Shown here: positions 17,173-29,845 of the stretch, in pieces
Position numbering within the stretch: position 1 is the first letter of the stretch
Layout: every line of letters begins with the position of its first letter
Assembly: GCA_944384815.1 (NCBI GenBank)
Contig: CALWUW010000022.1
Coordinates: 1 to 36,764, forward strand
Length of the DNA stretch: 36,764 nt
Direction of reading: 5' to 3'
From: an uncultured Clostridia bacterium
GTDB lineage: Bacteria; Bacillota; Clostridia; Oscillospirales; Acutalibacteraceae
Program-made: the position numbers and the translations under genes
Notes under the pieces: generated by a model
Told to the model about the DNA's origin: nothing
Database searches by the model: none
The model's input: only the letters and a program-made list of their open reading frames with translations

Positions 17173-17279
17173 TAGAAAGCTACGCTGTAACGCTTTAAAA
17201 GTTTCGGAAATTGGGAAAAATAAAAACGTTAGAAAAGCAAGCCGGTTCCTGCCCCGGCCTGCGGAAGGAGTATTGCCCC

Positions 17280-18791
17280 ATGAGTATGAGAGGTATTTAC
17301 ACATCGGTTACGGACATTCGCCGGAAAGTCTTTACGGAAGTGGCTCGCCTGGCCTATGAGGGAGGGGATTATTCCCGTGTGGAATCGCTTCCCTATAAGA
17401 TCCTGCCCGGAGAAGAAGCCAAGTACAGAGATTCTATTTTCCTGGAAAGAGCTATCGTAGGAGAACGGCTGCGGCTGGCTATGGGTCTTCCTCTTCGTCC
17501 CATGACGGAACACGCCCCTGTTTCCCAAGGCGTGAACGAAAGCGCCGTAGGTGAAAAATACTACGATCCGCCGCTGGTGAATATCATTAAATTCGCCTGC
17601 AACGCCTGCCCCACTAAGCAATATAGGGTCACAGACGGCTGCCAGGGATGCCTGGCGCATCCCTGCACGGAAGTTTGCCCCAAGCACGCCGTTTCCATCG
17701 TTCACGGCAAATCTGTGATCGACCCGGAAAAATGCATCAAATGCGGAAAATGCAAAGAAGTCTGCCCTTACGGCGCCATTCAGAAAATCGAACGTCCCTG
17801 CGCCGCAGCCTGCGGCATGGACGCCATCGGAAGCGACGAGCAGGGCCGGGCGGTTATTGATTACGATAAATGCGTTTCCTGCGGTATGTGCATTGTAAAC
17901 TGCCCCTTTGGCGCCATCTCCGACAAAGGGCAGATCTTCCAGCTGATCCACGCCATGAAGGAGAACCAGAAGGTGATCGCCATTGTGGCGCCGGCATTTG
18001 TAGGGCAGTTTGGCCCTAAAATGACCCCGGAACACCTGACCGCCGCCATGAAGGAACTGGGCTTTTGGGGTATGGAAGAAGTGGCCGTAGGCGCGGATCT
18101 CTGCGCTATTGAGGAAGCCAAGGACTTTATGCGGGCCGTTCCCGCCGAGCAGCCGTTTATGGCCACATCCTGCTGCCCCTCCTGGTCTGTGATGGCCAAA
18201 AAGCTCTTCCCGGATCTGGCGCCGTATATCTCCATGGCTTTGACGCCCATGGTGCTTACCGCCCGCCTGCTGAAAAAGAAGCATCCGGACTGCAAGATCT
18301 GCTTTATCGGGCCCTGCTCCGCCAAAAAGCTGGAGGCCAGCCGCCGTTCCATTCGCAGCAATGTTGACTTTGTTCTCACCTTTGAGGAACTGATGGGTAT
18401 GTTTGAGGCAAAGGGCGTGCAGCTGGATCAGATCACGGAAGAACGGCCTTTGGAAGAAGGCACCGCCGGCGGCCGCGGCTTCGCCATCAGCGGCGGAGTT
18501 GCCGCAGCGGTAACGGATGTAATCCGGAAACTGGATCCCGAGAGGGAAGTGAAAACTGTTTCCGCCCAGGGGCTGAAGGAATGCAAAAAGCTGCTGCTTC
18601 TGGCCAGAGCCGGAAAATACAACGGCTACCTGCTGGAAGGCATGGGCTGCCCCGGCGGCTGTGTGGCCGGTATGGGCACCCTGCAGCCGGTAAACAAGTC
18701 CACGGCGGCTGTACAAAAATACATGGCGGAAGCGCCGGTGAAAAACAGCGCGGATTCCAAGTATGAAATTGATTTGAGCCTTTTGGACTGA
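17280..18791 (+). CDS. Group B-type monomeric [FeFe]-hydrogenase
   Basis: Catalyses H2 evolution or uptake with ferredoxin-like partners. The 503-residue protein has an N-terminal region rich in [4Fe-4S] sites: a Cys cluster near 107-133, CIKCGKCKEVCP (152-162), further cysteines near 174-178, and CVSCGMCIVNCP (198-208). The H-cluster motifs follow: TSCCPSW (296-302), IGPCSAKK (344-350) and EGMGCPGGC (453-461). GPC instead of MPC and this Fe-S layout point to group B rather than the classic CpI type. The start ATG at 17280 has GGAAGGAG nine bases upstream; an in-frame ATG at 17211 lacks a site. No maturase (HydEFG) is in the window. Confidence 0.92.
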   Translation: MSMRGIYTSVTDIRRKVFTEVARLAYEGGDYSRVESLPYKILPGEEAKYRDSIFLERAIVGERLRLAMGLPLRPMTEHAPVSQGVNESAVGEKYYDPPLVNIIKFACNACPTKQYRVTDGCQGCLAHPCTEVCPKHAVSIVHGKSVIDPEKCIKCGKCKEVCPYGAIQKIERPCAAACGMDAIGSDEQGRAVIDYDKCVSCGMCIVNCPFGAISDKGQIFQLIHAMKENQKVIAIVAPAFVGQFGPKMTPEHLTAAMKELGFWGMEEVAVGADLCAIEEAKDFMRAVPAEQPFMATSCCPSWSVMAKKLFPDLAPYISMALTPMVLTARLLKKKHPDCKICFIGPCSAKKLEASRRSIRSNVDFVLTFEELMGMFEAKGVQLDQITEERPLEEGTAGGRGFAISGGVAAAVTDVIRKLDPEREVKTVSAQGLKECKKLLLLARAGKYNGYLLEGMGCPGGCVAGMGTLQPVNKSTAAVQKYMAEAPVKNSADSKYEIDLSLLD

Positions 18792-21934: not shown

Positions 21935-21982
21935 TTACACTGTTACATTGTTACACGGTTGCACGGTTACACGGTTACACCG
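21935..21982. repeat. Degenerate octamer array, unit TTACACGG
   Basis: Six units in exact period: TTACACTG, TTACATTG, TTACACGG, TTGCACGG, TTACACGG, TTACACCG. The last unit contains the stop codon of the ABC ATPase gene (minus strand), and the array places TAA stops at every 8 bases, i.e. in all three minus-strand frames. Confidence 0.82.
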
Positions 21983-22739
21983 GCCGGAACACGGTAAAAT
22001 CTCCCTCTTCCGGCGAAGAAACCTGCACCGGGCGCAGGCCAAAATTCCGTTCCGGCAAGCCGCTGGAGATAAAATCCCCGGCTGTCCCGGAAAAGACCAT
22101 AGCGCCTTCCTGCATAACCCAAAATCTGTCCCCCAGCTGCACCGCGTCCTCCAAGCTGTGCAAAGTGGTGACGATAATTTTTCCTTCCTCCCGCATGGAG
22201 CGCAAAAATCCAAACACCCGCTGCCGGTATTCCGCGTCCAGATTGGCTGTCGGCTCATCCAGCAGTACTGCCGGCGTATCCTGGGCCAGGAGCATGGTGA
22301 AAAACGCCATCTGCCTTTCTCCTCCGGACAGATTGCAAACCAGATCCCCGGCATGGGGCAAAACCCCGGATCGCTCCATGGCCCGGCGCACCTTTTCCTT
22401 TTCCCCCTGGGAAAGGCGCCCGGTATAGCCAGTATAGGGCTGACGGCCAAAAGCCGTAAGCTCCTCCACGGTGACCGGGGGCTGGGGAAGCGTTTGGGGC
22501 ATCACTGCCAGCATCCGGGCTCTTTCTGTGGGAGAAAGACCGGAAAGATTTTTCCCGTTCAGAAGGATCTCTCCCTGAAACCGGGAATAGGCCCCGGAAA
22601 TACAGCGGAGAAGGGAGGTTTTTCCACTTCCGTTTTTTCCCAGAAGCACCGTGATCTCCCCCGGAGCCGCCTGAAAATCCACATCCCGCAGGATGGTTTT
22701 CTTCCCTTTGGATAAACCGATCTTTCGGCATTGGATCAT
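21975..22739 (-). CDS. ABC transporter ATP-binding protein, iron/corrinoid (FecE/BtuD) type
   Basis: Powers import by the adjacent permease. Walker A GKNGSGKTS, signature LSGGERQMAFF and Walker B VLLDEPTANLD are complete; 254 aa is normal. The ATG at 22739 overlaps the permease stop by four bases (ATGA), which decides it over an open frame reaching 23000. The 3' end runs into an octamer array that supplies the last codons and stop. Confidence 0.92.
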   Translation of the reverse strand: MIQCRKIGLSKGKKTILRDVDFQAAPGEITVLLGKNGSGKTSLLRCISGAYSRFQGEILLNGKNLSGLSPTERARMLAVMPQTLPQPPVTVEELTAFGRQPYTGYTGRLSQGEKEKVRRAMERSGVLPHAGDLVCNLSGGERQMAFFTMLLAQDTPAVLLDEPTANLDAEYRQRVFGFLRSMREEGKIIVTTLHSLEDAVQLGDRFWVMQEGAMVFSGTAGDFISSGLPERNFGLRPVQVSSPEEGDFTVFRPV

Positions 22740-23734
22740 ACGGCCTCCCTCCTTTTCCGAAGCAGCAGATAGAGGAAAAACGGCGCTCCCATGGCGGCCA
22801 TTAAAATGCCCGCCGGAAGCTCTGCCGGGGAAAAAAGCGTGCGGGCCGCCAAATCCGACAAAATCACCAGCACCCCTCCCGCCAAAGCGCAGAAGGGGAC
22901 CAAAACCCGAAGATCCTGCCCCACAATTCTTCTGGCCATATGGGGAATGATCAGCCCCACAAACCCTAAAAGGCCGGCAAAGGAAACCACCGCGGCGCAC
23001 AAAACACTGGAAAGCACCAAAGCAAAAAAGCGGATCCGGCGCACCTGTATTCCCAGGCTTTGAGCCAGTTCATCCCCCAGACAAAGCAAATTCAGCTTGG
23101 GAGAGAGGATCCAGGCGCACAAAATCCCCAGCAGGATCATGCTTCCCGGCACCGGCAGATCTTCCTTATACACGCCGGAAAACCCTCCGGCGGAAAAGGA
23201 GGCGTAGGAAGAAAGCACCTCGGGATACAGCTGGGAGAAAAAGGAAATTCCTGCGTTAAACAGCGCCGCCACGGCCACTCCCGCCAAAATCACCGTGGTT
23301 TTGGCAAAGATCCGCCGGCCGGTAAAGGAAATTCCCAGCACCGTCATGGTGGTCACCATAGCTCCCACAAACGCGGCCGCAGGCAAAAGGGGATACGCCA
23401 TAGGAAACAGGCACAAAAGCAGCATTACGGCAAACCCGGCTCCGGCGTTTACGCCGATGACACTGGGGCTGCACAAATCGTTATCCGTGGCGCTCTGCAG
23501 CAAAAGCCCAGCCACCGCCAGCCCCCCTCCGGCCAGCAAAGCTCCTATCACCCGAGGCAGCCGAAGCTCAAACAGGATCAGTTCCACGGAAGGATCCCGG
23601 TTTTCACCGAATATCCCATTCCAAAGTTCCTCCACACCAAAGCGGGCGCTTCCCAAAAGAAACCCTGCCAGCATACTGGCAACCAACAGAAGAAAAAGCA
23701 CAAAGAAAATCAACGGCAGCTTTTGCTTAGTCAT
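22736..23734 (-). CDS. FecCD-type ABC transporter permease
   Basis: A 332-residue membrane protein with about nine to ten helices, family hallmarks RVIGALLAGGGLAVAG, GVNAGAGFAV and the C-terminal coupling region GLIIPHMARRIVG. It transports iron-siderophore, haem or cobalamin across the membrane. It overlaps the binding-protein gene by eight bases and the ATPase gene by four, so the three form one operon. Confidence 0.93.
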   Translation of the reverse strand: MTKQKLPLIFFVLFLLLVASMLAGFLLGSARFGVEELWNGIFGENRDPSVELILFELRLPRVIGALLAGGGLAVAGLLLQSATDNDLCSPSVIGVNAGAGFAVMLLLCLFPMAYPLLPAAAFVGAMVTTMTVLGISFTGRRIFAKTTVILAGVAVAALFNAGISFFSQLYPEVLSSYASFSAGGFSGVYKEDLPVPGSMILLGILCAWILSPKLNLLCLGDELAQSLGIQVRRIRFFALVLSSVLCAAVVSFAGLLGFVGLIIPHMARRIVGQDLRVLVPFCALAGGVLVILSDLAARTLFSPAELPAGILMAAMGAPFFLYLLLRKRREAV

Positions 23735-24752
23735 TTTTTTCCTCCAATGGATACAAAAGCTCCGTCAGATACGTATACGCTTCATCCCAGCGGGCATTGG
23801 GCTTGTAATGGAAAAGATCCTTGGGCAGATACCAACAGCGCTGATTTTTCACTGCCTCCAGGTCTCGCCAGCCGCTTTGCTCCAGCACGCTGTTCATATA
23901 CGCCTGCGCTGCCTGTTCGTCTCCCTGGGGAACGATCAGGATCACATCCGGCTGCTTCTGCACCACATGCTCCAGAGAAAGTCCCTGGGACAAAGCTCCC
24001 GCTTCATCGGCAATGTTCACCGCTCCCAGCTCCTGCAGCATGATCCCTACAAAATGATCCTTGGCGGTTTTGGCTTTGGTGGAGGAATCTCCCGAACCCG
24101 CCCGGATAAACAGCACGGACACCGGGTCTTCCATTTGCCCGGCTCTTTCCTCAGCTTCCTGCAGCGCTGCCTCCACCCGTTTCTGCAGCTCCACGCCGTA
24201 GGTCTCATAAGCTTCCGGATTTTCGGTGATATCCGTAAAAATCTTCAGGATGGAAAGGTAATCTTCCACCGTTTCTTCCGTAAAGGCCGCGCAGGGGATT
24301 CCCGCCTGGGAAAGCCTTTCGCAAACCTCTTTTTGGGCGGAAAGATCCGCGGAAGCGATAACAAAATCCGGCTGGCTGGCCACCAGCTGCTCCGTATCGA
24401 TTTTCAGCCCTGCTCCGTCATCCACCAGCAAGGTTCCTTCTTCCGCAAAGCCCCGCTCTACCGAATCTCCCACCGTCACCTGCACAGTCCCTCCTGCCAG
24501 GCCCCACATTTCCGCGTAGGAGGAAAACAGCACGGCCACCTTCTGCGGCCGGGAAGAAAGGGTCACCTGCCGGCCGGTGGAATCGGTAAAGGTATAGGGA
24601 AAGACAGAAGAAGTCTGGGAGGACTCTTCTTCGGAAGAAACTTCCAAGGAAGGCCCCGCAGAAGGTACAGAGGAATTTCCGCCCTGGGCATTACATCCCC
24701 AAAGCAGCACAAACAAAAGTAAAAGAAAAAATGCACCGGATTTTCGAACCAT
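23727..24752 (-). CDS. Substrate-binding lipoprotein of the iron/corrinoid ABC importer
   Basis: Type III periplasmic-binding fold. A signal peptide with lipobox LLWGC (Cys about residue 20 from this start) anchors it outside the membrane. The mature part begins with a serine-rich linker, then FTDSTGRQVTL and the TroA/FepB-type two-lobe pattern. Start: ATG at 24752 has GGAGG five bases upstream; TTG four codons earlier is inside that site. The ligand could be ferric siderophore, haem or cobalamin. Location beside a sirohydrochlorin chelatase favours a tetrapyrrole or its metal, as inference. Confidence 0.9.
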   Translation of the reverse strand: MVRKSGAFFLLLLFVLLWGCNAQGGNSSVPSAGPSLEVSSEEESSQTSSVFPYTFTDSTGRQVTLSSRPQKVAVLFSSYAEMWGLAGGTVQVTVGDSVERGFAEEGTLLVDDGAGLKIDTEQLVASQPDFVIASADLSAQKEVCERLSQAGIPCAAFTEETVEDYLSILKIFTDITENPEAYETYGVELQKRVEAALQEAEERAGQMEDPVSVLFIRAGSGDSSTKAKTAKDHFVGIMLQELGAVNIADEAGALSQGLSLEHVVQKQPDVILIVPQGDEQAAQAYMNSVLEQSGWRDLEAVKNQRCWYLPKDLFHYKPNARWDEAYTYLTELLYPLEEKND

Positions 24753-24895: not shown

Positions 24896-25654
24896 TCACA
24901 GAAAATCAGATCCTCCGGGCAAAAACAAAGACACAAAGGCAGGGAAATGCCCCATGCCCTGAAATTGAACGGAAACGGAAAGCCCTTCCGCTTCCAAAAG
25001 GGATTTGATCCCTTCTTTTTCCCCAACGGCTTCCCGGGCGTGGTGCCCGGCGCAAAACATAAGAAACGCCAGAGAAACTTTCTTATACCCCATAGCCGCC
25101 ACCGATGCGGCAGCTTCTTTTGGGGTTTCTTTCCCGTGAAGCAGCAGAACACGCAGATCTTCCCGGCCCTGCTCCCAAAGCTTGTTTTGCAGAAGGGCAT
25201 ATTCCCCCCAGGATTCCCGGCTTCCGTGGCCTAAAAGCACCCAGCCTTCTTCCTTTCGCCGGGGAAACAAGCTGTCCAGCACCCGGGCGCATTCCTCCGC
25301 TCTGCCTGGCAGCAAAGGCGGCATACAGGTAAACCCGGGAAAGTGGCAGGAAGCCTGCCGGCAAATTGCCTGCAAGGCTTCCCACTCCTCACCGGAAGCA
25401 AAAAGCAGCGGCTGCACCAAAACGTTTCGGGCGCCGTTTGCCAGGAGGCTTTCCAGGGCCTCCTCCGGCGAAGGGAGGGAAAGCCCCTTCCCCGCCAGAC
25501 GCCGCCGCAAAAAGCCGCTGCTTACAGCCAGCACACCTGTTTCCGCGCCGGTTCGCTCTCTGGCCAACTGGTGCGCCGGAAAAAATGCCTCCTTCATCTG
25601 AGCCGGATCCGCTGTGCCGAAACAAACAGTCAAAAGTCCGTCAAAAACCGGCAT
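24896..25654 (-). CDS. CbiK-like sirohydrochlorin chelatase
   Basis: Inserts Co2+ (cobalamin) or Fe2+ (sirohaem) into sirohydrochlorin. Residues lie close to positions recalled for Salmonella CbiK: E89 (ASGEEWEAL), H143 (LLGHGSR) and H204 (CAGHHAREA), against Glu89, His145 and His207. Length 252 aa is normal. The ATG begins one base after the stop of the flavoenzyme-sulfite reductase fusion, so it is probably coupled to it; a weak GGCGGAG lies upstream. That link suggests the metal here is iron for sirohaem, but cobalt is equally possible from sequence. Confidence 0.85.
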   Translation of the reverse strand: MPVFDGLLTVCFGTADPAQMKEAFFPAHQLARERTGAETGVLAVSSGFLRRRLAGKGLSLPSPEEALESLLANGARNVLVQPLLFASGEEWEALQAICRQASCHFPGFTCMPPLLPGRAEECARVLDSLFPRRKEEGWVLLGHGSRESWGEYALLQNKLWEQGREDLRVLLLHGKETPKEAAASVAAMGYKKVSLAFLMFCAGHHAREAVGEKEGIKSLLEAEGLSVSVQFQGMGHFPAFVSLFLPGGSDFL

Positions 25655-25655
25655 A

Positions 25656-28223
25656 TCAGCAGGTGGCTCCGCCCACCACGGTCTTCTTCATAACGGCTTC
25701 CTTATCCAGCTTACCGTTTAACAGCTTATCTTCCACGTAATCAAATCCCAGGCGGTTGATGGTATCGGCAAACCGTTCGCCGGAAATGCCTTCATCCCGG
25801 AAGAACAGGATGGCCTTCTCCACAATTTCCAGAACTTCCTCTTCCGTAGTGAAGATCCGGGAGAGAGGCTTGCCTTCCGCCACTTTCTTGCCCCAGCGGC
25901 CGCCGATATAGATCTTATAGCCATAGGTGCTTTCGTTGACGGCGCCGAAGGGACATTTGGTCACGCAGCGTCCGCAATGGTTGCAGATCTCCGGATCCAT
26001 AACCACTTTTCCGTCTTTTACGGATGCGGCCTTTACCGGACATACCTTCTCAACCTGGCAGACTTTGCAGCCGCGGCACTTGGAAAGATCCGGCTCCGGT
26101 AAGCGTTGGCCTACGATGCCCAGATCGTTCAGATTGGGCTTTACGCAGTTATTGGGGCATCCGCCCACAGCCAGCTTGAATTTATGGGGCAGGGAAACGT
26201 TGTGATACCCTACATAGAACAGGTCGTGCAGCTTCTGGCTGAGAGCAAAGGTATCGCACAAGCCATACTGACAGGTGGTGCCTTTGCAGGATACCACCGG
26301 CCGCACCTTGGAACCGGTTCCGCCGGTTTCCAGGCCTTTCTGGTTCACGAATTCCATCAAAGCGTCCAGATTGGAGTAGGGAACGCCCTGGATCTCCAAC
26401 GTCAGACGTGTGGTCATGGTCACTTCTCCGGAGCCGAAGCGATCCGCCGCTTCCGCCACGGTTCTCTGCTCCTCACTGGTGAGTTTGCCGTTGCGGGTGA
26501 TGATCCGGACATTGAAGCGATCCGGATACCGCTTATCCTGGAGACATCCCAGGCCCTTTACACGCTTGATCTCTTCCGGAGGAAGGGTTCCGGCAGCAAA
26601 ATCCACCTTTACAGTATTGAAGGTGATGCCGCCTTCCAGCACCCGGGTGTTTTTATATCCGTAATGTTTCAGGCGATTCTGGAGGAAATATCCCCGCTTG
26701 CCTCTGGCGCAGACCAAAAGCAGCTTCTCTTCCGGATCCAGTCCGTCCACCGGGCCGGTGACCTTGGAAAGATCCACCCATTTGGCGCCGGGAATGGACG
26801 GCGTAGGCAGAACGTCGATAACACGGTAGCCCTTGGCGGCGCCGGAAGCATACTCCGCAGGAGTAAAGGTTTCCAGCTCACCGGAAAGCTTGTTTTCCAA
26901 AATATAGCAAGCCTGGGTAAAGGGATGAATGGCCGTAGAGAAAGGCGGCGCATAGGCAAAGTCCAAAGTATCAAACGCGTCCACCGTCAAACCGGTGGCA
27001 ATACCGGTAACGGCAATATCCACCATTTTATCCACAGCGCCCGCGCCCAGCACCTGAATGCCCAGAAGCTTCCGGGAAGACTTGTCCGCGATCAGCTTTG
27101 TGGCAAAGAAGGAGCTGCCGGGATAATAATGGGCTTTGTCATCCGTAATGCACACCACGCTGATGGGGTCATATCCTTCCTGCCGGGCCTGGGCTTCCGT
27201 AAGGCCGGTGCGTCCGGCGTTCAGCTGAGGCAGAAGTTTGACCACGCCGGTGCCCAGACAACCCTGATAGGAGGCTTCTTCTCCCACCATGGCTTTTGCC
27301 ATGGCCCGAGCGGCCAAATTGGCTGTAGAACCCATTGCGGACCATTGGGGTTTTCCCGTCTGGCGGTTCTGCACCAAAGCACAGTCTCCCACAGCGTAAA
27401 CATCCGAAAGATTAGTGCGCATCTGGGGATCCACAACGATGGTCCCTTTCACCATTTCCAAACCGGTTTCCTGAAGGAACTGGGTAGCCGGGCGCACGCC
27501 GATGGCCAAAACCACCACATCCGCCGCTACGGCGCCGTTATCCGTTACGATCCCCGCCGCCCGGGATTCTCCGCTGACGGAAAGAATTCGGCTTCCGGTG
27601 ATTACCCGCATTCCCGCTTCCTTCAGCCGGCGTTTTGCATACTCTGCCATTTCCGGATCAAAAGCATTGGGCATGATCTGAGACGCCGCGTCCACCACCG
27701 TTACGGAAAGGCCCTGCGCCATAAGATTTTCCGCCGCTTCCAGGCCGATAAAGCCTGCGCCTACCACAGCAGCCTGGCGGCATCCGTTGGTTTTCACATA
27801 CTCCAGAAGGGAGATGGCGTCATCCGGCGTACGCAGACAGAAAACACCGGGCAGATCCTTCCCGGGCATGTCCGGCACAACGGGAACCGCGCCGGAAGCG
27901 ATCACCAGTTTATCATAGCTCTCCGTAAAGCTTTCGCCATTTTTCACGGCTGTTACCGTCTTGGCGGAAGGATCCACCGCTGTCACTTCACACTCCGTTA
28001 CCACCTGAGCGCCGGTAAGCCCCATATACTTTTGAGGCGTATTGACGATCAGCTCTTCTCGGGTTTCGATCAGGCCGCCCACATAGTAAGGCAAACCGCA
28101 GCCCGCATAAGAGATATCCGCGCTTTTGGTAAGAACTTTTACCTGAGCATCCCGGTTTTCCCGCAGCAGCTTGGCTGCCGCTTTGGTGCCGGCAGCTACG
28201 CCGCCCACAATTACAATTTTCAT
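25656..28223 (-). CDS. NADH flavoenzyme-rhodanese-sulfite reductase-ferredoxin fusion
   Basis: An 855-residue multidomain protein. Residues 1-445: CoA-disulfide reductase/persulfide reductase type, with FAD site GGVAAG (7-12), redox Cys42 in SYAGCGLPYYVGG, NAD site VVGAGFIGLEAAEN, and the second FAD motif YAVGDCA. About 451-546: rhodanese with Cys505 in VCARGKRG. About 550-700: a sulfite/nitrite reductase module with CKGTTCQYGLC and GGCPNNC, resembling AsrC/DsrA. About 716-757: two [4Fe-4S] ferredoxin motifs. The ATG at 28223 has CGGAGG six bases upstream; an open frame up to 28265 lacks a site. It probably reduces sulfite, polysulfide or persulfide with NADH. That reaction and sirohaem binding are inference. 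Confidence 0.88.
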   Translation of the reverse strand: MKIVIVGGVAAGTKAAAKLLRENRDAQVKVLTKSADISYAGCGLPYYVGGLIETREELIVNTPQKYMGLTGAQVVTECEVTAVDPSAKTVTAVKNGESFTESYDKLVIASGAVPVVPDMPGKDLPGVFCLRTPDDAISLLEYVKTNGCRQAAVVGAGFIGLEAAENLMAQGLSVTVVDAASQIMPNAFDPEMAEYAKRRLKEAGMRVITGSRILSVSGESRAAGIVTDNGAVAADVVVLAIGVRPATQFLQETGLEMVKGTIVVDPQMRTNLSDVYAVGDCALVQNRQTGKPQWSAMGSTANLAARAMAKAMVGEEASYQGCLGTGVVKLLPQLNAGRTGLTEAQARQEGYDPISVVCITDDKAHYYPGSSFFATKLIADKSSRKLLGIQVLGAGAVDKMVDIAVTGIATGLTVDAFDTLDFAYAPPFSTAIHPFTQACYILENKLSGELETFTPAEYASGAAKGYRVIDVLPTPSIPGAKWVDLSKVTGPVDGLDPEEKLLLVCARGKRGYFLQNRLKHYGYKNTRVLEGGITFNTVKVDFAAGTLPPEEIKRVKGLGCLQDKRYPDRFNVRIITRNGKLTSEEQRTVAEAADRFGSGEVTMTTRLTLEIQGVPYSNLDALMEFVNQKGLETGGTGSKVRPVVSCKGTTCQYGLCDTFALSQKLHDLFYVGYHNVSLPHKFKLAVGGCPNNCVKPNLNDLGIVGQRLPEPDLSKCRGCKVCQVEKVCPVKAASVKDGKVVMDPEICNHCGRCVTKCPFGAVNESTYGYKIYIGGRWGKKVAEGKPLSRIFTTEEEVLEIVEKAILFFRDEGISGERFADTINRLGFDYVEDKLLNGKLDKEAVMKKTVVGGATC

Positions 28224-28412: not shown

Positions 28413-29845
28413 TTAAAATAAGAATTTCTCCTGCATTCTGCGTTCTGACAAAGAATCTTCTTTCAAAACAGTGACCGTGTCGCAGCAGCGAAAATCCGTG
28501 TCGATGGCATGAGCGATCACCCGGGCTTTAAATTTTCTGGGGTTGCAGATGGCTTCAGGCAACCCTCCGGAAACATCCAGCTCCTCCGGCAGAACAAACT
28601 TGATACATTTTACCTGGATGTCCCGGCACCCGGACGCCTGGTGCGCGGGAATGACCATCGTTTTCAAGCCCCGGGAATGCTCCTGCCCGTCAAAACCCAC
28701 TTCCGTAAGAAAAACGGCCAGCGCTACCCGCTTTCCGGGGCAAACATCTTTTATGGTCACATTCAGTTGAAGGATTCTTCCCAAGGATTCCAGATACGTG
28801 TCCCCCAAATCAAACACCAACGAATCCTGACATCCCTCCATGGTCAATTCCACAGGAACCGGGCATGGCTCCGGCTGCACTACATGGTCGCATTCCACCG
28901 TTACGGACGGATCCGGAAATACTACAACATTTCCCTCGTTATCCGAATAGCTAATCGACTGATTCACCAGCTTTTCGCCGGAAGAATTCCCTACATGCCG
29001 GATAAAAAATTCCAGGGAAGCGCCTTCATTGACCGAAACGCCCAACTCCTGGATCTTCCACTGCAGGGTATTGGAATCCACCATCATGGTTGTGCCTTTT
29101 GTAGGCGGCGCTACACTGGTAATGACAAAATCCGGTTGAATCACTTCATCAATGACAATATCCGTGGCGCCGGTTTTGGAAATATTCGCGGCCAGATCCC
29201 GAAACAACTCTTCCAGCTCCGAATCCTCCGGCGTCACCGCCACATGGGAGGCATCCGGATCCGTGGCCCAATCATTGAGAACGTTTACATCCACGCCGTT
29301 GGAACCCACCAGACCAATGCAGTAGATTATAATTCCGGAAGCTCTGGCGGCAGCTGCCACCGGTGCGGGGGGGAGGGCCCGCCGTAGTCTTTCCATCTGT
29401 GAACAAAACAATTACCTTGGCATTGGAAGACATAGGATCAAACAGCTGGATCGCTTTGGAAAAAGCGTCCGCATGGTTGGTGCTTCCATCCGCTATTAAG
29501 GCATCCACCGCGTTTTTCAGGTCATCCACAGATGTGGGTAAGCGGCGTGTCGGTTGTGGCCGTTGCTGCAAAGCTGACGATTCCCATTTGGCTGCCGGAA
29601 CCGATGGTTCCATCCGGCAAAGGGTTGGTGGACTGCTGAATAATATCAATAAACGCCTTGGCGCCTTCCTTCATATTGGCTAGGGGACTTCCGGCCATAC
29701 TGCCGGAACGATCCAGCACCAAAGCAATATCTGTAGGATTGGATGAAATATCCGGGGAAGCTGAGAGAGCCAAAGTCACCTTTAAGCTTCCGCCGCAATC
29801 TATACGATCCCGATCAATTTGTTTATTAGAACTTGTAACACCCAT
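28413..29845 (-). pseudogene. VWA-domain protein with two frameshifts
   Basis: A von Willebrand factor A domain followed by a Cys-rich C-terminal domain, in three frames. The first frame (29845-29522) has the MIDAS DRSGS; the second carries GSTNHADAF and LFTDGK, the other MIDAS residues; the third carries the rest. Removing one C from CCC (29536-29538, minus) and one from CCCCCCC (29367-29373) joins all three into one open frame of about 477 residues, with DTPLT-TSVDDL and TAGPPP-APVAAAA at the joins. No signal peptide is seen. Ribosome site AGGAGG lies before the first ATG. It may be a decayed gene, a phase-variable gene (C7 tract), or sequencing error. Confidence 0.85.

Follow-up and report, generated by a model that had tools for sequence, protein, structure and literature searches.

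Within the window, by which we mean the whole 36,764-nucleotide stretch of DNA analyzed here from an uncultured member of the Acutalibacteraceae, a single gene joins a CoA-persulfide reductase, a rhodanese, and a sirohaem sulfite reductase (SiR) in one polypeptide and is followed by a gene for a CbiK-like chelatase and by those of a FecCD-type ABC importer (Table 1). The explanation that we favor, with slightly better than even confidence, is that an SiR module of the Fsr/AsrC class works with its CoA-persulfide reductase-rhodanese half through a relay by Cys855 and depends on an imported cofactor. More tentatively, and with more doubt than belief, we propose that one operon combines a single-chain SiR, whose C-terminal cysteine relays sulfur to the rhodanese and CoA-persulfide reductase of the same polypeptide, in the roles of DsrAB, DsrC, and the final reductase, with a dedicated sirohydrochlorin or sirohaem importer for tetrapyrrole auxotrophs.

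Table 1. The fused gene, its parts, and the genes downstream of it, in window positions
Feature	Positions	Strand	Basis
Whole fused gene (CoA-persulfide reductase, rhodanese, and sirohaem SiR; 855 aa)	25656..28223	-	Frame, Pfam, PDB matches, relatives
FAD/NAD CoA-disulfide/persulfide reductase part, residues 1-450, Cys42	26874..28223	-	Pfam; PDB 6pfz, 8a56
Rhodanese domain, residues 451-545, Cys505	26589..26873	-	PF00581, E 9.9e-6
Fsr/AsrC-class sirohaem-[4Fe-4S] SiR module with inserted two-cluster ferredoxin, residues 546-855	25659..26588	-	
C-terminal tail VVGGATC, last residue Cys855	25659..25679	-	Conservation of GGA and terminal Cys
CbiK-like sirohydrochlorin chelatase	24896..25654	-	PF06180, 90.8 bits, cut-off 26.2
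Substrate-binding lipoprotein of predicted sirohydrochlorin/sirohaem importer	23727..24752	-	PF01497, 90.4 bits; SiR-linked SBP family
FecCD-type permease of importer	22736..23734	-	PF01032, 287.4 bits
ABC ATPase of importer	21975..22739	-	PF00005, 89.7 bits; 4-nt overlap with permease gene

The frame of 855 codons begins with an ATG at 28223 and ends with a stop at 25656, and the plus-strand reading of the same interval is interrupted by stops. The same single stop-free frame occurs in eight further loci from separate records (L009-L016), a recurrence on which we reject a sequencing error as the origin of the fusion and which bears out the one continuous frame claimed in an earlier, sequence-only reading of this DNA. 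Pfam places Pyr_redox_2 at residues 1-288, Pyr_redox_dim at 334-432, a weak Rhodanese match at 468-533, NIR_SIR_ferr at 567-624, and NIR_SIR at 637-830, with Fer4 motifs within 715-771, so that every family which that reading had named for a domain check (Pyr_redox_2, Rhodanese, NIR_SIR, and Fer4) was found. The residues to which it had pointed, namely Cys42, Cys505, CKGTTC, GGCPNNC, and two [4Fe-4S] motifs, were likewise all located in the protein. Its account is supported in part: it holds for the flavin, rhodanese, and SiR parts on one chain, which Pfam and PDB matches bear out, but not for ferredoxins described as trailing, since both [4Fe-4S] motifs lie inside NIR_SIR 637-830, as they do in Fsr. 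Prediction of the full-length structure from an alignment of nine sequences gave a poor model (mean pLDDT 68.7, pTM 0.49), and therefore the relative placement of the two halves and of C855 in it was not used. Elsewhere in the window we noted by eye a frame that contains several [4Fe-4S] motifs and resembles a monomeric [FeFe] hydrogenase (17211-18791, plus strand) and three overlapping frames that together look like one vWA-domain protein, possibly frame-broken (28413-29845, minus strand).

The C-terminal half belongs to the sirohaem sulfite/nitrite reductase superfamily by its domains, with NIR_SIR at 99.9 bits (curated cut-off 27) and NIR_SIR_ferr at 52.5 (cut-off 24), and also by its residues, as all four cluster cysteines (C646/C651 in CKGTTC and C689/C693 in GGCPNNC) are kept together with the substrate Arg/Lys set. 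R573, R606, R641, K681, and K683 align to R355, R388, R423, K460, and K462 of Fsr, which the part of the Fsr paper available describes as sulfite binding (PMC10229431), and this set is kept in 104-106 of 106 SiR rows. The nearest solved chains by sequence to residues about 566-829 are those of Fsr (PDB 7npa, 7np8), and the structure prediction that the earlier reading had recommended gave an SiR-only model (mean pLDDT 85.4) whose fold is closest to this sirohaem enzyme. Fsr also shares the two-cluster ferredoxin inside the SiR module, which is formed here by C716/719/722/728 and C747/750/753/757. The two proteins differ in that Fsr has an F420 part at its N half, where the fused protein has the CoA-persulfide reductase and rhodanese, in that the first cluster motif is CX5C in Fsr (PMC10229431, in part) and one residue shorter, CX4C, here, and in the additional Cys tail of the fused protein. 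The module is thus a sirohaem-[4Fe-4S] sulfite reductase of the Fsr/AsrC class with predicted sirohaem binding and activity. The arginine that matches R606 is treated as an assimilatory trait in the available part of the Fsr paper (PMC10229431), a trait by which the module may be able to complete the six-electron reduction alone, without a relay.

Membership in narrower families was rejected, as all scores fell below the curated cut-offs: 110.6 bits for the AsrC model TIGR02912 (cut-off 324.1), though it was among the best SiR models, 237.2 for the NirB model TIGR02374 (578.35), 88.7 for the DsrA model TIGR02064 (392.85), and 90.6 for the DsrB model TIGR02066 (341.5). AsrC differs in its partner, which here is the CoA-persulfide reductase with rhodanese, as well as in the score far under the cut-off.

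The N half, residues 1-545, corresponds to a CoA-persulfide reductase with its rhodanese (CoAPR); among solved chains it is nearest in sequence to NoxA-3 (6pfz, residues 1-535) and to a CoA-persulfide reductase (8a56, residues 2-533). The alignment to 8a56 follows the whole FAD-NAD-rhodanese chain at 311.6 bits and keeps both cysteines, which places this half in that family; the CoA-disulfide reductase model TIGR03385 scores 369.2 bits, below its cut-off of 578.8. Among 48 CoAPR-linked relatives, C505 is kept in all and C42 in 45, the remaining three lying outside alignment coverage at that position. Known CoA-persulfide and CoA-disulfide reductases with a rhodanese (PDB 8a56, 3icr) thus share the chain of domains and C42 plus C505, but here that chain is fused or adjacent to a sirohaem SiR. 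NirB is alike in having an FAD half and a sirohaem half, and it differs in that the present protein has a rhodanese and an inserted ferredoxin. A BFD-like [2Fe-2S] domain is a feature of NirB, and no BFD domain was among the 25 Pfam families matched at E up to 0.01. The contrast with NirB drawn in the earlier reading stands for the similar flavin and SiR halves and for the extra rhodanese found by Pfam, and it needs correction for the extra ferredoxin, which is inserted and not trailing.

Six exact peptide patterns recovered 29 related loci, a sample that therefore leans to near relatives. Eight of them carry the full fused frame, 17 have the two parts as a pair of neighboring genes that encode about 540 and 317 residues, two are broken, and two are truncated, one fused and cut by the contig end (L021) and one cut after the first gene (L026). 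Defining CoAPR linkage as a match of at least 45% identity no more than 2.6 kb away and on the same strand, we counted 15 fused and 33 split forms among 48 linked rows, separated by one change on a tree that was made by a quick method, is unrooted, and has several long branches. Recurrence in the eight loci, together with the 15 fused rows of 48, argues that the fused frame is not a product of chance. Two near relatives of the fused gene (L036 and L037) carry frame changes or deletions and were read in separate pieces only, and importer genes still adjoin them.

In 16 of 30 contexts (the 29 loci plus the window), the gene immediately upstream is a divergently oriented LysR gene, and the single LysR protein that was scanned scored 194 bits with a selenium-associated LysR model and 167 bits with YeiE, below both cut-offs. 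A YeiH-family match was found near the SiR in 11 of 50 CoAPR-linked loci; in the window, neither a LysR nor a YeiH match stands beside the fused gene. According to the part of a Salmonella study available, YeiE binds sulfite and YeiH confers resistance to it (PMC12880088). Downstream of four split pairs (L018, L025, L032, and L035) we noted by eye a HemA-like gene, and in three of these a HemC-CobA gene, of which that of L018 passes the HemC and SUMT cut-offs with a HemD-like end below cut-off. The same four loci have a second SiR, NirA/CysI-like (that of L018 was scanned), upstream of the divergent LysR gene by the split pair.

A GGA-x-Cys tail with cysteine as the last residue was present in all 24 SiR modules first aligned, and among 108 SiR ends uncut by a contig it occurs in 48 of 49 CoAPR-linked proteins versus 5 of 59 unlinked ones (Fisher 1.2e-23, uncorrected for kinship). 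Among five independent pairs on the tree, tail and partner vary in the same direction in about 4.6 and in opposite directions in none (p 0.06). The only linked SiR without the tail (L117) ends close to a contig end, and stand-alone SiRs nested in the fused clade (L152, L123, L124, L116, and L112) have neither partner nor tail. Seven unlinked SiRs end in Cys, and five keep the tail. Two of these five, L150 and L114, have no CoAPR partner and appear to carry an N-terminal fusion to a C_GCAxxG_C_C protein (PF09719 at 55.4 bits in L150, by eye in L114), a putative redox-active thiol protein.

As the tail tracks CoAPR linkage, sulfur may be relayed through it to the NADH half; we infer that Cys855 cooperates with the rhodanese/CoAPR half, and the simplest role for it would be to carry sulfur or a disulfide. 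We also considered a ThiS-like carrier, in which GG would be followed by a removable end. The local pLDDT at Cys855 is under 50 in the full model and about 70 in the SiR model, and the best structural alignment to Fsr stops at 297 of 309, so neither model fixes the position of Cys855.

Downstream, the genes follow in the order CbiK-like chelatase, binding protein, FecCD permease, and ATPase, and 1 nt separates the stop of the fused gene from the chelatase start codon. The chelatase combines its PF06180 match with both histidines of the GHG and AG-x-HA motifs, which we take to be the active-site residues. It scores 64.9 bits with the NCBIfam CbiK equivalog NF047852 (cut-off 400), a cut-off under which the CbiK-like genes of L184 and L185 also fall (140.7 and 203.5 bits). 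Peripla_BP_2, FecCD, and ABC_tran domains side by side identify the next three genes as a FecCD-type ABC importer, whose predicted cargo is sirohydrochlorin or sirohaem. Sirohydrochlorin is an intermediate common to the sirohaem and anaerobic B12 routes and is therefore the most economical substrate. CbiK was found in 2 and not found in 11 of the 13 HemC-less genomes searched for it, so most of them would need another chelatase or would import sirohaem itself, and a single substrate for all the importers is not certain.

The host genome, a 2.0-Mb draft that is 92.6% complete, has the fused gene as its single NIR_SIR gene. It gave no match to HemC, as judged by PF01379 (found in 11 of 14 control genomes), and no SUMT over the cut-off, the best match being 35 bits versus 185. 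Sirohaem synthesis thus looks absent, an external source of the cofactor is most likely, and the host probably takes up sirohaem or a precursor of it. HemC is present in 8 of 98 relatives. SUMT was searched for in two sets, of 44 and 38 genomes. Among their HemC-less members, 1 of 13 in the first set and none of 33 in the second have it over the cut-off; the exception, G102 (L013), has SUMT at 282 bits, and its HemC may therefore be missing from the assembly. All of these genomes are drafts that consist of many contigs.

Across 109 SiR loci in 108 genomes, the importer goes with the loss of HemC. Counting it as adjacent where tblastn matched the binding protein within 6 kb or the permease within 7 kb, we found it beside the SiR in 33 of 45 HemC-less loci and in 1 of 64 HemC-positive loci. 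For loci of known context, the numbers are 31 of 36 versus 1 of 54 (Fisher 8.5e-18), after L036 and L037 (both HemC-less with importer) and L168 (a second G048 copy, HemC-positive without importer) had been dropped and 16 importer-less loci with less than 3.5 kb of flank (7 HemC-less, 9 HemC-positive) had been set as unknown; short-flank loci in which an importer was seen were retained. HemC and the transporter change 19 times each on the tree, and among 14 independent pairs the two vary in the same direction in about 11.5 and, on average, in opposite directions in 0.0 (median p 0.001). The importer may lie downstream, upstream, convergent, or divergent relative to the SiR, and it adjoins fused, split, and stand-alone SiRs alike; fused loci by themselves have it in 6 of 6 HemC-less cases versus 0 of 5 HemC-positive ones. 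This association is one of gene content in draft genomes, and it has exceptions. Among the loci of known context, five HemC-less ones lack an adjacent importer: in G187, G339, and G092 the SBP family is encoded elsewhere in the genome, in G044 it lies at a distance of about 8 kb within the SiR contig, and G333 has the SiR with neither importer nor SBP family. In G432 the importer coexists with SUMT over the cut-off and a partial HemC match of 88 bits.

The SiR-linked binding proteins look like one family, as each of the 34 members has another at 219 bits or more. For comparison, we fetched 15 regions with other binding proteins from the same or nearby genomes, of which 14 gave a match; 11 of the 14 reached at most 78 bits, and the remaining three (G092, G339, and G187), at 313 to 483 bits, represent the family located away from the SiR. 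The lowest pair within the family, at 72 bits, falls in the unrelated range, and the outlying L133, L134, and L143 are therefore less sure members. In the 98 relatives, with presence set at 277 bits or more (next best 95) and the SiR called from a match under 1e-40, the family occurs in 11 of 13 genomes with SiR and without HemC, a count that is partly by construction as 8 of the 11 fed the query alignment. It occurs in 0 of 7 genomes with both and 3 of 77 with neither, counts free of that construction, and in 0 of 1 with HemC and without SiR. The three SiR-less, HemC-less carriers have a CbiK-like gene that immediately precedes the one for the binding protein (G009), CbiA, CbiQ, CbiM, CbiK-like, and CbiL genes around it (G027), or CbiH, CbiL, CbiC-like, and CbiF genes beside it (G031, 75% complete). 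By eye, we further noted CbiO at the G027 locus (L185) and CbiG, CbiET, and CbiJ at that of G031 (L186), two loci with B12-ring genes by the importer family and no HemC match, as if cobamides were made from an imported ring.

In the mechanism that we favor, electrons, probably derived from ferredoxin, would pass through the inserted clusters, and sulfite would be reduced at sirohaem. Cys855 on its glycine hinge would accept a sulfur intermediate, or form a mixed disulfide, and hand it to Cys505 and to CoA/Cys42, where NADH and FAD would complete the reduction to sulfide. The FecCD-type system would import sirohydrochlorin, into which the CbiK-like chelatase would insert iron, and relatives in which CbiK was not detected would import sirohaem itself.

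Other readings of the same genes deserve attention. The fused protein might instead be a NirB-like chain from NADH to FAD, the inserted clusters, and sirohaem, with the rhodanese as a passenger or regulator and a tail that only joins the halves. The NirB model does match, and Fsr too works with a flavin half plus clusters according to the part of its description available (PMC10229431), but we think this unlikely given a score of 237 of 578 bits, the BFD search result, and a joining role that leaves the nearly invariant last cysteine unexplained. We rate as lower still the chance that the protein is a sulfane-sulfur reductase acting on thiosulfate, polysulfide, or persulfide, in which the rhodanese would split the substrate and the SiR would handle the released sulfite. 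The N half is after all a persulfide reductase with a rhodanese, a rhodanese together with Asr has been proposed for thiosulfate reduction in Halanaerobium, and rhodanese and Asr genes co-occur in over 40% of the Clostridia genomes studied (PMC5497025, in the part available); the YeiE- and YeiH-like neighbors, however, indicate sulfite, though they are absent beside the gene in the window.

As for the importer, it might carry haem, cobalamin, or an iron siderophore, and its link to the SiR in HemC-less genomes might then reflect a general need for tetrapyrroles or iron. The FecCD family serves all such ligands, and the solved binding proteins that match this one by sequence include IsdE and HutB, which bind haem, though the E-values are weak (1.9e-5 and 9.8e-4). 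Yet in 18 of the 34 regions that carry the importer (the window plus 17 loci, searched without a positive control), no cobalamin riboswitch reached the gathering score, which lends no support to cobalamin import, and the SBP family is carried by so few SiR-less, HemC-less relatives, and there beside CbiK-like or B12-ring genes, that we consider such a general role improbable.

Compared with DsrAB and DsrC, the latter known for a persulfide relay, the fused protein has its Cys tail in cis with one cysteine, an arginine at the assimilatory-type position, and scores under the DsrA and DsrB cut-offs. Halobacteria offer another sirohaem reductase joined to a rhodanese, in 19 of 529 NirA proteins; these are of the four-domain NirA type, and the available part of that study reports no FAD/NAD persulfide reductase (PMC11237513). 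The earlier reading knew of no described enzyme with this domain order, and our search of open-licence PMC papers likewise found no paper that describes the fused architecture or an importer of sirohaem or sirohydrochlorin; within the reach of this search, both the tail-partner pattern and the importer are undescribed.

Shelton et al. defined tetrapyrrole precursor salvagers and verified their dependence on ALA (PMC6461909, in part). The organisms considered here resemble them in missing early tetrapyrrole genes and needing a downstream cofactor, but those salvagers concern cobamides, and the available part of that paper names no importer of a late precursor (PMC6461909). If our explanation is correct, this importer would be a candidate for such a late intermediate, and anaerobes unable to make tetrapyrroles would reduce sulfite to sulfide with a cofactor, or its last metal-free precursor, obtained from neighbors. 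Such anaerobes would then rely on cross-feeding to produce sulfide, and the tail-and-partner pattern may represent a persulfide relay built into one polypeptide.
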